Below, one piece after another: positions 13,666 through 27,460 of a stretch of DNA of 64,000 nt (position 1 is its first letter; each line of letters opens with the position of its first letter). A program made the translations under genes and the position numbers. The DNA lies in the NCBI RefSeq assembly GCF_000359745.1, contig NZ_AQHN01000072.1, forward strand, positions 186,001 through 250,000, given 5' to 3'. This DNA is from Rhizobium freirei PRF 81. Its GTDB lineage: Bacteria; Pseudomonadota; Alphaproteobacteria; Rhizobiales; Rhizobiaceae. Below the pieces are notes generated by a model. That model had not been told where the DNA came from and did not search any database. It saw only the letters and a list, made by a program, of their open reading frames with translations.

Positions 13666-14018
13666 TATAGCTCGCCTTTCCAGTCGATCCGCCGTCGTAG
13701 CGGATCGTGGCGAGCCGACAGGAGTCGGTTAGTGCACGAATGCTACTGACGGCAAAGGCAATCGACTACTACTGTCGCTAGGCATCGAAAGATGGCTCCG
13801 GTTAATCGGTATGGAAAAACGCTGTTCCCCATGTGCGGAGAAGTCGCGCCGAAGGCATAAAAAGTCAAGAGGTGGAAGCAGTTTAAGGCCCAGTGTCGCA
13901 AGAAAAATTTGCTTAGGCGGCTGAAACTTGTGCGATGCAGCAATTTGGGGTGTAACTCTGTAAAAATGCAATGGCCGGATGTCTTGCATCCGGCCCAAAT
14001 TGTTGTGAACTCTGTCGA
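13666..14018. other. Gene-free stretch upstream of mgtE
   Basis: The 353-bp region holds the mgtE leader and promoter, and at its right end the terminator of the convergent-side dehydrogenase. Close to the mgtE start is an 8-bp inverted repeat cgatccgc/gcggatcg (13685-13692 and 13700-13707). It could be an RNA stem or a protein site. I could not recognise a known magnesium riboswitch. Confidence 0.5.
13963..13995 (-). terminator. Terminator after the zinc-type dehydrogenase
   Basis: ggccggatg (13973-13981) pairs perfectly with catccggcc (13987-13995); on the minus strand the stem is followed by a T-rich tract. Confidence 0.8.
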
Positions 14019-15032
14019 TCAGAAGCCCGCCAGGACGACCTTGCCCTTCATCTTGCCGGTCTCGACAAGGGCATGCGCCTTCTTCAGATTGGCCGCGTTG
14101 ATCGTGCCCGCGGTCTCGGTCAGCGTCGAGCGAATCTTGCCCGCATCCACCAGCTCCGCGACCTTCGTCAGCAGCTTGTGCTGCTCGATCATGTCGGCGG
14201 TGTTGAACAGAGGGCGAGTGAACATCAGCTCCCAGTGGATCGACACGGCCTTGCGTTTGAAGGGCACGACATCGAGCGTCTTCGGGTCGTCGATCAGGGT
14301 GAACCGGCCCTGGGGCGCAATGGCGTCGACAATCGATGCGATGTGATCTGCGGTATTCGTCGTGGAGAAGATGAAGGCCGGTGCGCCGATGCCAAGCGCC
14401 TCGATCTGCGGCGCAAGCGGCTTCGAATGGTCGATAACGTAATGGGCGCCCAGCTCCTTGACCCAGGCCTGGGTTTCCGGCCGTGATGCCGTTGCGATGA
14501 CGGTGAGGTCGGTCAGGGCGCGCGCGATCTGGATGGCAACCGATCCCACGCCGCCCGCACCTCCGATGATAAGGATGGCGTTCGTCACGCCGGGCACGGG
14601 GTCCTGCACCTTCAGGCGGTCGAACAGGGCCTCATAGGCGGTGATGGAGGTCAGCGGCAGTGCCGCGGTAGCTGGGAAGTCGAGGCTCTTCGGCTTGGCG
14701 CCGACGATGCGCTCATCGACGAGATGGAACTCGGCATTTGACCCGCCGCGGTTGATGGCGCCTGCATAGAAGACCTCGTCTCCCGGCTTGAACATGGTGA
14801 CCTCGGGACCGACAGCCTTGACGATGCCGGCCGCATCCCAGCCGAGGATTTTGTACTCACCTTCGCTCGGAGCGACGTTGGCACGGACTTTGACATCGAC
14901 CGGATTGACGGAAACCGCCTTCACTTCGACGAGCAGGTCACGGCCCTTTGCTTCTGGCGTCGGCAGTTCGATATCGATCAGGGATGTCGCTGCGGAAATG
15001 GGTTGCGGTTGCTTGTAGGCGACTGCGCGCAT
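14019..15032 (-). CDS. Zinc-type alcohol dehydrogenase-like / quinone oxidoreductase (MDR superfamily)
   Basis: A 337-residue medium-chain dehydrogenase/reductase. The GroES-like half holds VSVNPVDVKVR and GWDAAGIVKAVGPEV. The Rossmann half holds the NADPH-binding motif IIGGAGGVGSVAIQIA and the block LGAHYVIDHSK. The catalytic-zinc cysteine/histidine set of classical alcohol dehydrogenases is not apparent, so it belongs with the quinone oxidoreductase-like, zinc-free members (TIGR02817 type). It is divergent from an HxlR regulator across a 104-bp spacer that contains a TGTAC-GTAG-GTACA palindrome. A role in handling quinones or other electrophiles is inferred from that context. Confidence 0.9.
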   Translation of the reverse strand: MRAVAYKQPQPISAATSLIDIELPTPEAKGRDLLVEVKAVSVNPVDVKVRANVAPSEGEYKILGWDAAGIVKAVGPEVTMFKPGDEVFYAGAINRGGSNAEFHLVDERIVGAKPKSLDFPATAALPLTSITAYEALFDRLKVQDPVPGVTNAILIIGGAGGVGSVAIQIARALTDLTVIATASRPETQAWVKELGAHYVIDHSKPLAPQIEALGIGAPAFIFSTTNTADHIASIVDAIAPQGRFTLIDDPKTLDVVPFKRKAVSIHWELMFTRPLFNTADMIEQHKLLTKVAELVDAGKIRSTLTETAGTINAANLKKAHALVETGKMKGKVVLAGF

Positions 15033-22208: not shown

Positions 22209-23168
22209 ATGAAGACTCCCATGGTGGCCAGCCGACAGAATTGGTTTATTCGCAACCGAATGATGCTGCTGACCCTCGCCGTTGTCGTGGCTTATGCCGC
22301 TTTCATCGAATGGTTCTGGGGCTGGAGTTCCATCCTGGCGCAATGGAGCAAGGTCGGCGCTCTGCCGATCCTTACGGCGCTCGCGCTTCTGACCGGCACC
22401 TATTTCCTGCGCACATGGCGCATCTACGACTACTTCCCGAAAGAAACGACCGGCCGCTTCACCTCGTTGTTTCGCGTGACGCAGGTGCATAACCTGCTGA
22501 ATATCATGATGCCTTTCCGCACGGGCGAGACCAGCTTCCCGGTGCTGATGCGCTCGGAATTCGGCATTCCGCTGGCGCGCGGCACATCGGCGCTGTTCGT
22601 CATGCGGCTGCTCGATCTGCACGCGCTGCTGACCGCAGCCGGTGTCGGCCTCGCGCTTGCTTCGCCCTATCGCGCTCTTTCCTGGATCGCATGGGCGATT
22701 TTTCTGCTGCTGCCCGTCGTGGGCTTTGCGTCCCGCAGGCCGTTGATCCGCCTTGCCGCCCGTACCCTGCCGAAGAAGGCTCAGGGGCTGGTTCACGAGC
22801 TGGAGCGTGGCCTGCCGGTTGATATCAGCGCCTTCGCGCGCGCCTGGCTGGCGACCGTCGTCAACTGGCTGGTCAAGGTCGTGGTGCTGGCCTGGGCGCT
22901 TGGCCTCATGAATGTCACGCCGCTTTCGGCAAGCTTCGGCGGCGCGCTCGGTGGCGAATTGTCATCCGTCCTGCCGGTGCATGCGCCGGGCGGCGTCGGC
23001 ACCTATCCGGCCGGTATCACTGCCGGCGCCATGGCCTTCGGGGCTTCGAGTGCGAAGGCGGCAATCGAGAATCTCGCTCAGGCGAGCATCAATGCCCATC
23101 TGCTGATCGTGGTGTCGGCGCTGACGGGAACGGCGATCGGATTGCTGGTCGGGCGCAAGCGTGCCTGA
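22209..23168 (+). CDS. Lysylphosphatidylglycerol synthetase-TM/UPF0104 family membrane protein
   Basis: A 319-residue polytopic protein with about eight hydrophobic segments. It shows family features such as VTQVHNLLNIMMPFRTGE (the polar membrane-embedded motif) and LPVHAPGGVGTYPAGITAGAM. The domain is the flippase-like transmembrane part of MprF and related proteins, here without a synthetase domain. The ATG at 22209 is used; the frame can be opened to a TTG at 22143, but the extension is not hydrophobic. The divergent gene encodes a GtrB-like transferase, so flipping of a lipid-linked sugar or lipid is a plausible role. Confidence 0.85.
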   Translation: MKTPMVASRQNWFIRNRMMLLTLAVVVAYAAFIEWFWGWSSILAQWSKVGALPILTALALLTGTYFLRTWRIYDYFPKETTGRFTSLFRVTQVHNLLNIMMPFRTGETSFPVLMRSEFGIPLARGTSALFVMRLLDLHALLTAAGVGLALASPYRALSWIAWAIFLLLPVVGFASRRPLIRLAARTLPKKAQGLVHELERGLPVDISAFARAWLATVVNWLVKVVVLAWALGLMNVTPLSASFGGALGGELSSVLPVHAPGGVGTYPAGITAGAMAFGASSAKAAIENLAQASINAHLLIVVSALTGTAIGLLVGRKRA

Positions 23169-23173
23169 TCCGG

Positions 23174-24421
23174 CTATCGACGAGCCGCCTCATCAAGCTC
23201 CGCCAACCGCTTGCGCAGGAAGGCCTGTTCCGGCGCCTGCTGGCAGAGCGATAGCGCTATTTCGTAGGATTGCCGGGCCTCGTCCAACCGTCCGATCTGC
23301 CGCAGGAAATCTGCCTTCGCGGCATGGGTCAGGTGATACCGCGCCATACGCTCCTCTTGCAGCAGCCCGTCGACAATCGAAAGTGCGGCCGCCGGGCCGT
23401 CGCGGATCGAGACGGCGACTGACCGATTGAGCTCGATCACCGGGGAGGGGGTCGCCGTTAGCAGCAGGTCGTAGAGCATCACCAGTTGCCGCCAGTCGAT
23501 ATCGTCAGCGGTCACGGCACGGGCATGCTCCGCTGCGATCGCCGCCTGCAGCGCGTAGCTGCCGACGCTCTCCGCCGCCATCGCTCTTGCCGACAGCATC
23601 AGGCCCTCACGGATCTGGCTGCGATCCCAGAGCGCGCGATCCTGATCGACAAGCAACACCAGATTGCCTGATGTATCGGTGCGCGCCAGTCGCCGCGAAT
23701 CCTGCAGCAGCATGATCGCAAGCAACCCTTCGACCTCCGGATCCGGCAATAGCTGCAGCAAGAGCCTGCCGAGCCGGATTGCCTCGGCGGCAAGGTCGGC
23801 CCGCACGATCGCAGAGCCTGACGATGCCGAATAGCCCTCATTGAAAACGAGGTAGATGACATGCAGCACCTGCGCCAGCCGCTCCGGCAATTCGGTCTTG
23901 CCGGGTACTTCATAGGGAATATGGGCGGCGCGAATGCGGTTCTTGGCGCGAACGATGCGCTGGGCGACGGTCGGCGCCGGGGTCAGGAAGGCATGGGCGA
24001 TCTCTTCCGTCGTTAGCCCGCAAACCTCCCGCAATGCCATCGCCATGCGCGCTTCGGCGGGCACGAGGGGATGGCAGCAAGTGAAGATCAGCCGCAGCAT
24101 GTCGTCTTCGATCTCTTCGTGTTCCGAGGTCTCCATCGCCTCTCCCTGCGGATAAAGGCTGTCGGCAATGTCCGAGCGGGACGCATCGAAGCGCGTCCGG
24201 CGCCTGATGTGATCGATGGCGCGAAAGCGGCCGGCGGAGACAAGCCAGGCATAGGGATTGGCAGGGATCGTCTCCGCCGTCCATTGCTGCGCCGCTGCCG
24301 CAAAGGCGTCGTGGAGCGCTTCCTCTGCCCGGTCGAAATCGCCAAGCAGACGGATGAGCGTCGCCAGCACGCGGCGCGAGTGGCTGCGATAGATGCTTTC
24401 GATGGTCTGGTTCAGCGACAC
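23174..24421 (-). CDS. ECF42-type RNA polymerase sigma factor with C-terminal TPR-like domain
   Basis: A 415-residue sigma factor, about twice the usual ECF length. Region 2 (RRVLATLIRLLGDFDRAEEALHDAFAAAAQQW, IDHIRRR) and region 4 (LRLIFTCCHPLVPAEARMAMALREVCGLTTEEIAHAFL, TVAQRIVRAKNRIR) are followed by a roughly 200-residue helical domain. That domain includes YLVFNEGYSASSGS and TPR-like repeats near the end. This is the ECF42 architecture, in which no anti-sigma factor is known and the target is a DGPF gene. It is the last gene of an operon whose three earlier genes all encode DGPF proteins, four bases from the nearest. Confidence 0.95.
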   Translation of the reverse strand: MSLNQTIESIYRSHSRRVLATLIRLLGDFDRAEEALHDAFAAAAQQWTAETIPANPYAWLVSAGRFRAIDHIRRRTRFDASRSDIADSLYPQGEAMETSEHEEIEDDMLRLIFTCCHPLVPAEARMAMALREVCGLTTEEIAHAFLTPAPTVAQRIVRAKNRIRAAHIPYEVPGKTELPERLAQVLHVIYLVFNEGYSASSGSAIVRADLAAEAIRLGRLLLQLLPDPEVEGLLAIMLLQDSRRLARTDTSGNLVLLVDQDRALWDRSQIREGLMLSARAMAAESVGSYALQAAIAAEHARAVTADDIDWRQLVMLYDLLLTATPSPVIELNRSVAVSIRDGPAAALSIVDGLLQEERMARYHLTHAAKADFLRQIGRLDEARQSYEIALSLCQQAPEQAFLRKRLAELDEAARR

Positions 24422-24425
24422 GGCG

Positions 24426-24803
24426 TCAACGATTCCTCGCCAGGTCTCCCCTAAGGGTCAGGGTGCGCACCGGACGGATCTCGATCGCGCCGTAACGCGC
24501 CGAGGGAATTCGCTTGGCAATGTCCGTCGCGCTTTCCAGATCAGGTGCATCGATAAGATAGAAACCGGCCAGATATTCCTTCGTCTCCACGAATGGCCCG
24601 TCCGTGACCGAAAACGCGTCTCCATCCGGCCGGATAACGATCGATTTGTTGCGGAGTTCCAGCGCATCCGAAACGATCAGGGTGCCGTCCTGCCGCAATC
24701 CCTCATCATAGACGAAATGCTCGGCGATCAGGTAGTTCATCTCGCTTTGGTCCAAGCGTCCGTCGACGTCAACGGATGTGTAGATCAGGCATAGAAACCG
24801 CAT
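24426..24803 (-). CDS. YCII-related DGPF-domain protein (third of three)
   Basis: A 125-residue ferredoxin-like-fold protein with the signature VTDGPFVETKEYLAGFYLIDA (about residues 66-86). It has the usual N-terminal strand (MRFLCLIYTS) and the C-terminal GAIEIRPV. DGPF proteins are small cytosolic proteins of unknown biochemical function, commonly linked to ECF41/ECF42 sigma factors. It lies 4 bases upstream of the sigma gene and 17 bases after the previous paralog. It is more divergent from the other two copies than they are from each other. Confidence 0.92.
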   Translation of the reverse strand: MRFLCLIYTSVDVDGRLDQSEMNYLIAEHFVYDEGLRQDGTLIVSDALELRNKSIVIRPDGDAFSVTDGPFVETKEYLAGFYLIDAPDLESATDIAKRIPSARYGAIEIRPVRTLTLRGDLARNR

Positions 24804-24820
24804 GTGTTTTCCTTTCTCAA

Positions 24821-25183
24821 CTATTCGTCCGGAAAGCGGATGTCGTAGGCGGCGCGCACCTCGATCATGCCATATTGCGCGACGGGGAAGGTGGCTGCAA
24901 TTTCAGTCGCCTCCTCCATGTCCCGTGCCTCGATCAGGACGAAGCCGCCGAGATGCTCTTTCATTTCGGCAAAGGGGCCGTCGGTAACAGCAGTTTCGCC
25001 CCGGCGCACCCGAACCGTTCTGGCGGCTTGCGGTTCGCGCAGGGCATTGGCGACGATGACATGGCCGCTTTCGCGCAGCCGGTTATCGTTGTCGATCGAA
25101 TCCTGCGTCAGCTTTCGTCCTTCCTCTTCGGAAAGCTTGGCGATCTCGGCGGTCTCGAACCAGACCTGGCAAAGAAACTTCAT
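24821..25183 (-). CDS. YCII-related DGPF-domain protein (second of three)
   Basis: A 120-residue paralog beginning MKFLCQVWFE. It contains VRRGETAVTDGPFAEMKEHLGGFVLIEARD and ends YGMIEVRAAY. The ATG at 25183 is chosen over a longer frame because it aligns with the starts of the neighbouring paralogs and leaves a 10-base spacer to the preceding gene. The biochemical role is unknown; the operon context points to an ECF42 stress-response module. Confidence 0.92.
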   Translation of the reverse strand: MKFLCQVWFETAEIAKLSEEEGRKLTQDSIDNDNRLRESGHVIVANALREPQAARTVRVRRGETAVTDGPFAEMKEHLGGFVLIEARDMEEATEIAATFPVAQYGMIEVRAAYDIRFPDE

Positions 25184-25193
25184 CTGAGCCTCC

Positions 25194-25553
25194 TCAAACG
25201 TCAGGGCCGAAGGAATAGATCGGCCGCACCTCGATGGCGCCGAGCTTGGCGAGTGGAATGCCGGCGGCAATGCGGATGGCATCGTTCAGGTCTTTCGCTT
25301 CGATCAGGATGAAGCCGCCAAGATACTCCTTGGTTTCGATGAAGGGACCGTCAGTCACAGACGTCTCGCCGTTGCGGACCCGCACCGTCACCGCTGAGCT
25401 TGGCGATTGCAGTGCTTCAGCGTGGATCATGTTGCCACTCGCCATCAGATCGCGGTCATAGCCGAGCGAATCCGAATCGAGCTTGTACTTTTCCTCCTTG
25501 GTCATGACGTCGAGCGTCGTACCATCGAACCAAACCTGGCAGAGATATTTCAT
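25194..25553 (-). CDS. YCII-related DGPF-domain protein (first of three)
   Basis: A 119-residue DGPF protein (MKYLCQVWFDG; VTDGPFIETKEYLGGFILIEAKD; GAIEVRPI). It is the first gene of the ECF42 operon. A candidate sigma-dependent promoter (TGTCGA-N17-CGTC) ends 37 bases upstream of its ATG, and gaaagaggaag near the start can act as ribosome-binding site. Its strong similarity to the second copy indicates local duplication. Confidence 0.93.
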   Translation of the reverse strand: MKYLCQVWFDGTTLDVMTKEEKYKLDSDSLGYDRDLMASGNMIHAEALQSPSSAVTVRVRNGETSVTDGPFIETKEYLGGFILIEAKDLNDAIRIAAGIPLAKLGAIEVRPIYSFGPDV

Positions 25554-25589
25554 TGCAGCGCTTCCTCTTTCAATTTGCTGACGGCCCTA

Positions 25590-25616
25590 GACGAGTGGCT
25601 GCCAAGCAAATCGACA
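25590..25616 (-). promoter_or_regulatory. Candidate ECF42 promoter
   Basis: On the minus strand TGTCGA (25616-25611), a 17-base spacer and CGTC (25593-25590) precede the first DGPF gene. This fits the TGTCGA / CG[A/T]C elements reported for ECF42 sigma factors, so the sigma factor at the operon's end probably activates its own operon. Confidence 0.65.
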
Positions 25617-25709
25617 TCCCGATCCGCAGCATGGCAAAAATTTTGATCGCTGTCGAAAAAGCCCGTCGCCGGTCGACCAGTTGCGTCAACACGACAAGGA
25701 GAGACGGAA

Positions 25710-25940
25710 ATGTACAGTCTGGAAGCCGCAATCGTACATTGCTGGCAAAGGAAGACTCTGTCGGAAGAGGAGCTGCTGGACGCGGCGGATGTCGGAAGGG
25801 TTGTTTACCGCATCTGGATCGGATTTGCGGGCTTTGCCTTCTTGATCCTGTGCCTGAGTTTGGGTGCACAGCCAAACGGCGAACGGCCGCAAGTCGCGGC
25901 CGTTGCCAATATTCATTCTGCGCCCGCAGAAGGGCGTTAG
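25710..25940 (+). CDS. Small single-span membrane protein of unknown function
   Basis: A 76-residue ORF with a strong ribosome-binding site (aaggaga, 25696-25702) eight bases before its ATG. One hydrophobic helix spans about residues 36-52 (WIGFAGFAFLILCLSL), preceded by an acidic helix (LSEEELLDAADVGRVV). It is divergent from the DGPF/ECF42 operon and convergent with amn. No domain was recognised. The ribosome-binding site and the amphipathic-plus-TM layout make a real gene likely. Confidence 0.7.
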   Translation: MYSLEAAIVHCWQRKTLSEEELLDAADVGRVVYRIWIGFAGFAFLILCLSLGAQPNGERPQVAAVANIHSAPAEGR

Positions 25941-25957
25941 GGCAGGAGCCTTGGCGC

Positions 25958-27460
25958 TTATTGGAACGCCGTTTCGAAGAAGCTGCGCAGCTTGCGCGAA
26001 TGCAGCGCCTCCGGCGGCATGGCTGCCAGCTTCTGGATGGCGCGGATGCCGATCTGTAGATGCTGGTTCACCTGGGTGCGGTAGAAGGCGGTTGCCATGC
26101 CCGGCAGCTTCAGTTCGCCATGCAGAGGCTTGTCCGAAACGCAGAGCAGCGTGCCGTAGGGAACGCGGAAGCGGAAGCCGTTTGCGGCAATCGTTGCCGA
26201 TTCCATGTCGAGCGCGACGGCTCGCGCCTGAGATAGCCGTTTGACGGGGCCAGCCTGATCGCGCAGTTCCCAGTTGCGGTTGTCGATGGTGCCGACGGTG
26301 CCCGTACGCATGATGCGCTTCAGCTCGAAGCCCTCATAGCCGGTGATTTCGGCAACGGCCGCCTCCAGCGCCACCTGCACTTCGGCCAGAGCCGGGATCG
26401 GCACCCAAACCGGCAGGTCGTCGTCGAGAACGTGGTCTTCGCGCATATAGGCATGGGCAAGCACATAGTCGCCGAGACGCTGGCTGTTGCGCAGACCGGC
26501 GCAGTGGCCAAGCATCAGCCAGGCATGCGGGCGCAGCACGGCAACGTGGTCGGTGATCGTCTTGGCGTTCGACGGGCCGACGCCGATGTTGATCATGGTG
26601 ATGCCGGCATGGCCCTTCTTCTTCAGATGGTAGGCCGGCATTTGTGGCAGCCGCGGTGCGGTCACATCGCCTTCGGGGTGGCTGGAGCCAGCCTTGGTGA
26701 TGATGTTGCCCGGCTCGACGAATTCGGTATAGCCGTCTCCGCCGCTGGCCATCAGGTCACGCGCCCATTTGCAGAATTCGTCGATATAGAACTGATAGTT
26801 CGTGAACAGCACGAAGTTCTGGAAATGCGACGCGCTGGTGGCCGTATAGTGGACGAGGCGGGCCAGCGAATAGTCGATGCGCTGCGCTGTGAACGGCGCG
26901 AGCGGCGAGGGCTCGCCCGGCGGCGGGATATATTCGCCGTTGGCGATCTCGTCGTCGGTGGTGTTCAGATCGGGCGTATCGAAGAGATCGCGCAGCGGAA
27001 TATCCTCGAATACCGTAGCGGATGCCTCGACATGAGCTCCTTCGCCAAAGGCGAAGTGCAGGGGGATCGGCGTATTCGATTCCGATACTACTACCGGAAC
27101 CTTGTGGCTGCGCATCAGGAGCGCCAGCTGCTCCTTGAGATAATGCTTGAAGAGCTGCGGGCGGGTAATGGTCGTCGTATAGACGCCGGGCGCCGTGACA
27201 TGGCCGTAGGAAAGGCGGGAATCGACATGGCCGAAGCTCGTCGTTTCGATGCTGACCTGCGGATAGAAGGCGCGATAGCGCGCCTTGATCGGCGCACCCT
27301 GGGCGAGCTTGGTGAAATTATCGATCAGGAACGCCGTATTGCGTTCGTAAAGCTCCGTCAGCGCTTCGACGGCTTTTCCTGGATCGTCGAAAGTCCGCGG
27401 CTGGAACGGAGTGGGAGAGGAAACGTCGAGGGGCGAAAAAGAAGAGATTCGGTTGCTCAT
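25958..27460 (-). CDS. amn: AMP nucleosidase
   Basis: The 500-residue enzyme hydrolyses AMP to adenine and ribose 5-phosphate in purine balance. The N-terminal domain (about 25-190) contains YERNTAFLIDNFTKLAQG and YPQVSIETT. The C-terminal nucleoside phosphorylase-like domain contains ITMINIGVGPSNAKTITDHVAVLRP, WLMLGHCAGLRNSQRLGDYVLA and ALDMESATIAANGFRFRVPYGTLLCVSDKPLHGE. Length and motif order are those of Amn. Monocistronic. Confidence 0.97.
   Translation of the reverse strand: MSNRISSFSPLDVSSPTPFQPRTFDDPGKAVEALTELYERNTAFLIDNFTKLAQGAPIKARYRAFYPQVSIETTSFGHVDSRLSYGHVTAPGVYTTTITRPQLFKHYLKEQLALLMRSHKVPVVVSESNTPIPLHFAFGEGAHVEASATVFEDIPLRDLFDTPDLNTTDDEIANGEYIPPPGEPSPLAPFTAQRIDYSLARLVHYTATSASHFQNFVLFTNYQFYIDEFCKWARDLMASGGDGYTEFVEPGNIITKAGSSHPEGDVTAPRLPQMPAYHLKKKGHAGITMINIGVGPSNAKTITDHVAVLRPHAWLMLGHCAGLRNSQRLGDYVLAHAYMREDHVLDDDLPVWVPIPALAEVQVALEAAVAEITGYEGFELKRIMRTGTVGTIDNRNWELRDQAGPVKRLSQARAVALDMESATIAANGFRFRVPYGTLLCVSDKPLHGELKLPGMATAFYRTQVNQHLQIGIRAIQKLAAMPPEALHSRKLRSFFETAFQ

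Follow-up and report, generated by a model that had tools for sequence, protein, structure and literature searches.

Organization of the locus

The window analyzed here is a stretch of 64,000 nucleotides from Rhizobium freirei PRF 81. It contains an operon of three YCII/DGPF genes, named D1, D2 and D3, followed by a sigma factor gene. All four genes lie on the minus strand, from 25553 to 23174, with spacers of only 10, 17 and 4 bases. A promoter-like element precedes D1, and beyond it a second element and a small open reading frame (ORF) are oriented in the opposite direction (Table 1). The start of D2 was taken as 25183, where it aligns with the family, instead of the upstream position 25282 given in the ORF list. 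The flanking genes of known families encode an LPG_synthase_TM protein, downstream of the sigma factor gene and convergent with it, and an AMP nucleosidase on the other flank; the small divergent membrane ORF, also adjacent, belongs to no known family.

Table 1. Features of the operon and its divergent neighbor in the window.
Feature	Position	Strand	Evidence
D1, first YCII/DGPF gene, 119 aa	25194..25553	-	Pfam YCII, 73.7 bits; phmmer match to 1s7i
D2, second YCII/DGPF gene, 120 aa	24821..25183	-	Pfam YCII, 66.2 bits; 55% identity with D1
D3, third YCII/DGPF gene, 125 aa	24426..24803	-	Pfam YCII, 70.4 bits; 41% identity with D1, 40% with D2
ECF42-type sigma factor, 415 aa, GTG start	23174..24421	-	sigma2, sigma4, DUF6596 and TPR-like C-terminal tail (Pfam, AlphaFold2, Foldseek)
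Putative operon promoter, TGTCGA-N17-CGTC	25590..25616	-	exact in 68/70 loci; class and spacer as in mapped Sinorhizobium meliloti RpoE10 promoters
Divergent promoter-like site, TGTCGA-N17-CGAC, near-palindromic	25651..25677	+	conserved in 67/70 loci; asymmetric footprint
Small ORF, 76 aa, one predicted TM segment at about residues 35-53	25710..25940	+	no Pfam or NCBIfam family

The three DGPF proteins scored 66-74 bits against a Pfam YCII cut-off of 24 bits. D1 matched the solved structure of the YCII/DGPF protein PA1349 (1s7i) over residues 1-113 (phmmer, E 3.2e-28); what differs here is the presence of three diverged paralogues in one operon. For each of the D1, D2 and D3 clades, 66 rows were compared, and the TDGP stretch was retained in 95% or more of them.

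In the sigma factor, Sigma70_r2 (36 bits), Sigma70_r4_2 (32.5 bits) and DUF6596 (121 bits) all exceeded their Pfam cut-offs, and TPR_7 scored 19.5, below its cut-off of 27.9. The AlphaFold2 model (mean pLDDT 82.6, 34 sequences) has a helical C-terminal tail, and the best Foldseek matches of the predicted structure were TPR proteins, including 2pl2 with a target TM score of 0.70. By the DUF6596 match, the model and the Foldseek matches, the protein has the extension of TPR-like repeats, some 200 residues long at the C terminus, that is expected of ECF42. Sigma2 and sigma4 are the only sigma regions, YCII/DGPF genes (three) adjoin the sigma factor gene, and the promoter is of the form TGTCG(A/G)-N17-CGTC, all of which supports assignment of the protein to the ECF42 type. 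The initial annotation had described three tandem DGPF genes tightly packed with a 415-residue ECF42 sigma factor carrying a TPR-like tail, and this description was borne out by the coordinates and spacers, the Pfam matches, the AlphaFold2 model and the Foldseek search.

According to the available part of a review (PMC8999054), ECF42 sigma factors with a long TPR tail also include Sven_0747, Sven_4377 and Sven_7131 of Streptomyces venezuelae and ECF-10 of Pseudomonas putida, and the tail is needed for the activity of the ECF42 sigma factors in both species. Unlike those systems, the present one pairs a single sigma factor with three DGPF genes, and a divergent gene for a membrane protein is linked to it.

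Cys115-Cys116-His117-Pro118 and Cys134 of the sigma factor were invariant in 34 sequences across phyla, and could serve metal or redox sensing. Relatives of the sigma factor with an in-frame stop were seen in two genomes of the genus (G030 and G159) and four of the family (G232, G210, G305 and G240); these are perhaps decaying genes or sequencing errors.

Three DGPF paralogues

A sigma factor orthologue was present in 133 of 148 genomes of the genus (E 1e-150). The same 133 genomes had D2-like matches (E 1e-30), two in each except for G075 with one and G131 with three. For detailed comparison we used 70 loci, namely the window and 69 orthologues: the best 29 other sigma matches (L066-L094, 82-94% identity) and 40 loci picked by hand from the remainder of the 133 (L125-L164). 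D1 and D2 were encoded together with the sigma factor in all 70 loci and D3 in 67; the copy missing from the three loci with only two DGPF genes (L147, L159 and L162) was always D3, and L077 carried four, two of which were D1. Where three copies were present (66 loci), the D1, D2 and D3 sequences separated into three clades with no mixing (support 0.77, 0.93 and 0.997).

We also examined named loci across many phyla, taking the best 80 of 589 confirmed. The nearest of these named loci come from Rhizobium or Rhizobiales, and all 12 such loci among the 80 had three YCII genes. By these comparisons, this operon in Rhizobium as a rule has three DGPF genes in fixed order, belonging to three separate clades. 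The other 68 of the 80 loci had no YCII gene (6 loci), one (39), two (13), three (7) or four (3), counted on the strand of the sigma factor and within the stretch, some stretches ending at contig ends. In other genera of the family, 26 loci (L168-L193) were drawn from the 29 of 199 genomes that matched the sigma factor at E 1e-100; upstream YCII genes numbered none in 2 loci, one in 16, two in 7 and three in 1. On account of the counts in the named loci, several YCII genes can be regarded as a recurrent feature of ECF42 loci. It had been remarked in the initial annotation that three copies exceed the simplest case. The three diverged paralogues were confirmed, but we rejected the idea that their number is exceptional, as it is the rule in Rhizobium and three or four YCII genes lie near ECF42 in 10 of the 68 non-Rhizobium loci.

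One of the loci from other genera, L181, has an ECF42 relative in a stop-free frame of 2067 codons, for which an upstream YCII gene was not found; only sigma4 and DUF6596 were recognized in 867 residues.

We know of no biochemical role of DGPF proteins, and no paper naming ECF42 together with DGPF was found in the literature searched. The three proteins are most likely downstream effectors, that is, small-molecule-handling proteins of the YCII fold, which may each have acquired a lasting role of their own or have become different subunits of mixed oligomers. Less probably, they sense ligands and adjust the activity of the sigma factor by binding to its TPR tail, the three copies representing three inputs. 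The part of the review available to us suggests that the conserved YCII neighbor takes part in ECF42 control (PMC8999054), and the constant company of D1 and D2 and the near-constant company of D3 fit such a role. The position of the DGPF genes downstream of the presumed promoter of the sigma factor, however, fits effectors or feedback equally, and in two of the three loci lacking D3 (L162 and L147) the sigma factor frame is free of stops, so that D3 at least looks dispensable. We prefer effectors to regulators, considering them roughly twice as probable.

The putative operon promoter

The element TGTCGA-N17-CGTC lies 63 bases 5' of the ATG of D1. A search of the 200 bases before the first gene found its exact form at 59-66 bases in 64 of the 70 loci and at 166 bases in four (L150, L152, L153 and L156). 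Of the two remaining loci, L074, read by eye, has CGAC as its core instead of CGTC, and in L077 the upstream of the first gene is outside the stretch, the element being present in a larger stretch of that genome. Within the operon bodies, TGTCGN-N17-CGTC occurred 0 times on the operon strand and twice on the opposite strand in 228,312 bases. With the 64 loci aligned on this motif, the letters used in the search were invariant by construction, and two letters that had not been selected for were conserved as well: T before the core in 63/64 and A two bases past the core in 64/64. Among the named loci with testable upstream sequence, 12/12 Rhizobium/Rhizobiales loci but only 4/19 others had TGTCNN-N17-CG[AT]C at most 200 bases from the first YCII gene. 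From these comparisons we regard the class of the operon promoter in Rhizobium as firm. The ECF42 promoter class of S. venezuelae is reportedly TGTCGA / CG(A/T)C.

In the four loci with the element at 166 bases, an insert of about 104 bases with inverted repeats directly follows the -10 core; it is missing in L151 and L154. It resembles a rhizobial intergenic repeat element, RIME.

In the 64-kb window, TGTCGA-N17-CG[AT]C was observed three times against 0.49 expected, and 3 of 100 shuffles reached three, so this count by itself is weak evidence. The third match, at 14013-14039 on the plus strand, overlaps an ORF that looks dehydrogenase-like by eye, at its 3' end, and was taken as chance. A search of 22900-26100 for sigma-70-type promoter-like sites found none, with just 0.6 expected by chance.

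Other ECF42 operons and proposed self-activation

The genome of strain PRF 81 has six DUF6596 sigma genes, the most among 61 genomes compared. The five other ECF42 operons (L027-L031, on contigs C57, C58, C86, C57 and C64) each have one YCII gene just upstream of the sigma factor gene. Upstream of these operons we found TGTCGA-N17-CGTC in three, TGTCGG-N17-CGTC in one and CGTCGA-N17-CGTC in one (by eye). The TGTCGG-N17-CGTC site sits inside the longest possible YCII frame, and the true YCII start must thus be further on. Since the promoters of the six operons are nearly identical, crosstalk among the six ECF42 sigma factors is likely. The genome also has a YCII match (L032, C92:4970-5305) on a contig with no DUF6596 sigma gene listed; the upstream frame on the opposite strand is glyoxalase-like by eye.

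A genome-wide search with TGTCGA-N14..19-CGTC for a larger regulon returned 474 sites (251 + 223), with 90 in the reversed-pattern control, and was rejected as too loose. When the T of the footprint was included, TGTCGA-N16-TCGTC gave 7 sites (control 1) and TGTCGA-N16-TCGAC 11 (control 1). A genome scan for further sites had been proposed beforehand; it did reveal sites before ECF42 operons. Every one of the 13 sites not ahead of an ECF42 operon overlaps a real or spurious ORF of 150 aa or more. By eye, one of them (L195) also lies 57 bases before a major-facilitator-transporter-like ORF, and another (L203) 137 bases before an efflux-adaptor-like ORF; the other ORFs flagged downstream of the 13 sites look spurious.

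The operon resembles that of Sinorhizobium meliloti RpoE10 (SMc01150) and SMc01151, which likewise has a TPR-tailed ECF42 sigma factor and a YCII gene upstream in the operon. In the portion of that work available (PMC6180224), RpoE10 raised SMb20475 and SMc01149, and the mapped promoters were TGTCGG-N17-CGTC; the two activated promoters have T two bases past the core, and T before the core in one only. S. meliloti has one YCII gene where Rhizobium has three, and overexpression of RpoE10 did not raise its own SMc01151-rpoE10 operon, where the motif overlaps the start site.

The initial annotation had pointed to TGTCGA-N17-CGTC ahead of the first gene as a sign of self-activation. The element is there, and its conservation and its match to the RpoE10 promoters support this reading, from which we infer that the Rhizobium operon would be activated by its own sigma factor. 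The precedent of RpoE10, which raised two other operons and not SMc01151 (PMC6180224, as far as available), would instead favor an operon driven by another sigma factor or regulator, with ECF42 acting on other targets. We consider this unlikely in Rhizobium, where the distance between the site and the ATG is long enough for a leader and the site is conserved in nearly all of the loci, and where three of the seven TGTCGA-N16-TCGTC sites in the genome stand ahead of ECF42 operons; each of the other four overlaps an ORF of 150 aa or more.

A divergent site and a small membrane-protein gene

The second site faces away from the operon. There are 32 bases between the end of its core and the ATG of the small ORF, and its spacer has the same length as that of the operon promoter. 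NGTCGA-N17-CG[AT]C was found upstream in 67 of the 70 loci, beginning with T in 63. The loci missed were L077, where the site is present in a larger stretch, L126 with a spacer of 16, and L139 with CGAT, the last two judged by eye. Both letters conserved around the core of the operon promoter recur here, T before CG(A/T)C in 62/67 and A two bases past the core in 67/67. The two bases after the first arm are both A (67/67 and 63/67), and the mirror positions of these two and of the A past the core are not near-invariant.

Thirty of the 67 sites are perfect 6+6 palindromes and 62 contain the 5+5 palindrome GTCGA-N16-TCGAC, as might be expected of an operator for another dimeric regulator instead of a divergent ECF42 promoter. 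An operator is nevertheless quite improbable: the conservation is one-sided, the site shares with the operon promoter its spacer and the letters before and beyond the core, and it is placed a short distance 5' of the small ORF.

The ATG of the 76-residue ORF is preceded by AAGGAG. A profile of the ORF matched 69 of the 70 loci, the exception being L077, where the stretch is too short. In the genus, 132 of 148 genomes had a match, and the ORF was adjacent and divergent to the sigma factor gene in 131 of the 133 genomes with the sigma factor; in the other two, the contig ends (G003) or the ORF is in a diverged form (G035, by eye). None of the 15 genus genomes without a sigma factor orthologue had a match. 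There was also none in nine stretches around other ECF42 and YCII genes of the same genome, nor in 13 other ECF42 loci of relatives (sigma factors at most 48% identical), where the stretches are short. These 13 are the non-orthologue loci among 29 DUF6596 stretches (L036-L064); the other 16 are sigma factor orthologues whose stretches end before the position of the ORF. Among the best 80 of 589 named loci, the site and the ORF were both found in 11 of 12 Rhizobium/Rhizobiales loci, and the ORF profile matched 0 of the 68 non-Rhizobium loci. In L256, a Rhizobiales locus, the first letter of the divergent site is G and an internal stop interrupts the ORF; the operon promoter is kept there, as are the three DGPF genes. 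L289 has an ORF of 64 residues that looks related and is placed after the same site.

The median dN/dS of the ORF was 0.30 and 0.48 in two groups of 34 and 33 sequences, which indicates purifying selection; these 67 are what remained of the 70 ORFs after removal of L077 and of two others by a start-motif filter. A hydrophobic stretch of 19 residues above 1.6 on the Kyte-Doolittle scale was present in 65 of the 67. Searches of Pfam and NCBIfam gave weak matches of single members only and no fitting family, and no match was found in plasmid records. A chance open frame, as its shortness, its absence from the family libraries searched and its stop in L256 might suggest, is scarcely credible for an ORF under purifying selection, linked almost completely to the sigma factor gene and preceded by AAGGAG.

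The divergent site and the selected, sigma-linked ORF together indicate that the module is probably bidirectional. Both are new here, being absent from the initial annotation, although we do not claim that the ORF is absent from print. For the S. meliloti RpoE10 locus, neither is mentioned in the available part of PMC6180224.

A model of the module

We consider it fairly likely that the locus is a self-contained Rhizobium ECF42 module with a bidirectional control region, built on the gene order, domains, conserved sites, three-clade DGPF set and co-occurring small ORF described above. The regulatory TPR tail of the sigma factor would replace a separate anti-sigma factor. A signal, probably acting through the tail, would leave the sigma factor active; this input through the tail is drawn from the parts of PMC8999054 and PMC9023288 available to us. 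The active holoenzyme would then read TGTCGA-N17-CG(T/A)C in both directions. On one side, transcription of D1-D2-D3-sigma would yield more sigma factor, as positive feedback, and the three YCII-fold proteins. On the other side, the small single-TM membrane protein would be produced.

We suggest, with low confidence, that the small protein is the membrane arm of the ECF42 system, made under the same sigma factor and tethering or inhibiting the TPR-tailed sigma factor or the DGPF proteins. It could also be a membrane stress protein without a part in the control of the sigma factor. The partner of the ECF42 tail is described as unidentified in the part of the review at hand (PMC8999054). If the membrane-arm reading is true, it would provide a dedicated membrane partner for a group thought to work without separate anti-sigma factors.

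The operon is of a known kind, a stress-type sigma factor operon, and is conserved across Rhizobium; the gene for the small membrane protein may be a component of the system that had been missed. Sigma factors of the ECF42 type are widespread. Present throughout the genus, the module combines its three constant DGPF clades with a closely linked membrane microprotein and a pair of recognizable promoter sites, and is small enough for signal, feedback and effector to be told apart by genetic means. Should the small protein be the membrane partner, the module would show how a tail-controlled ECF sigma factor is linked to the envelope.
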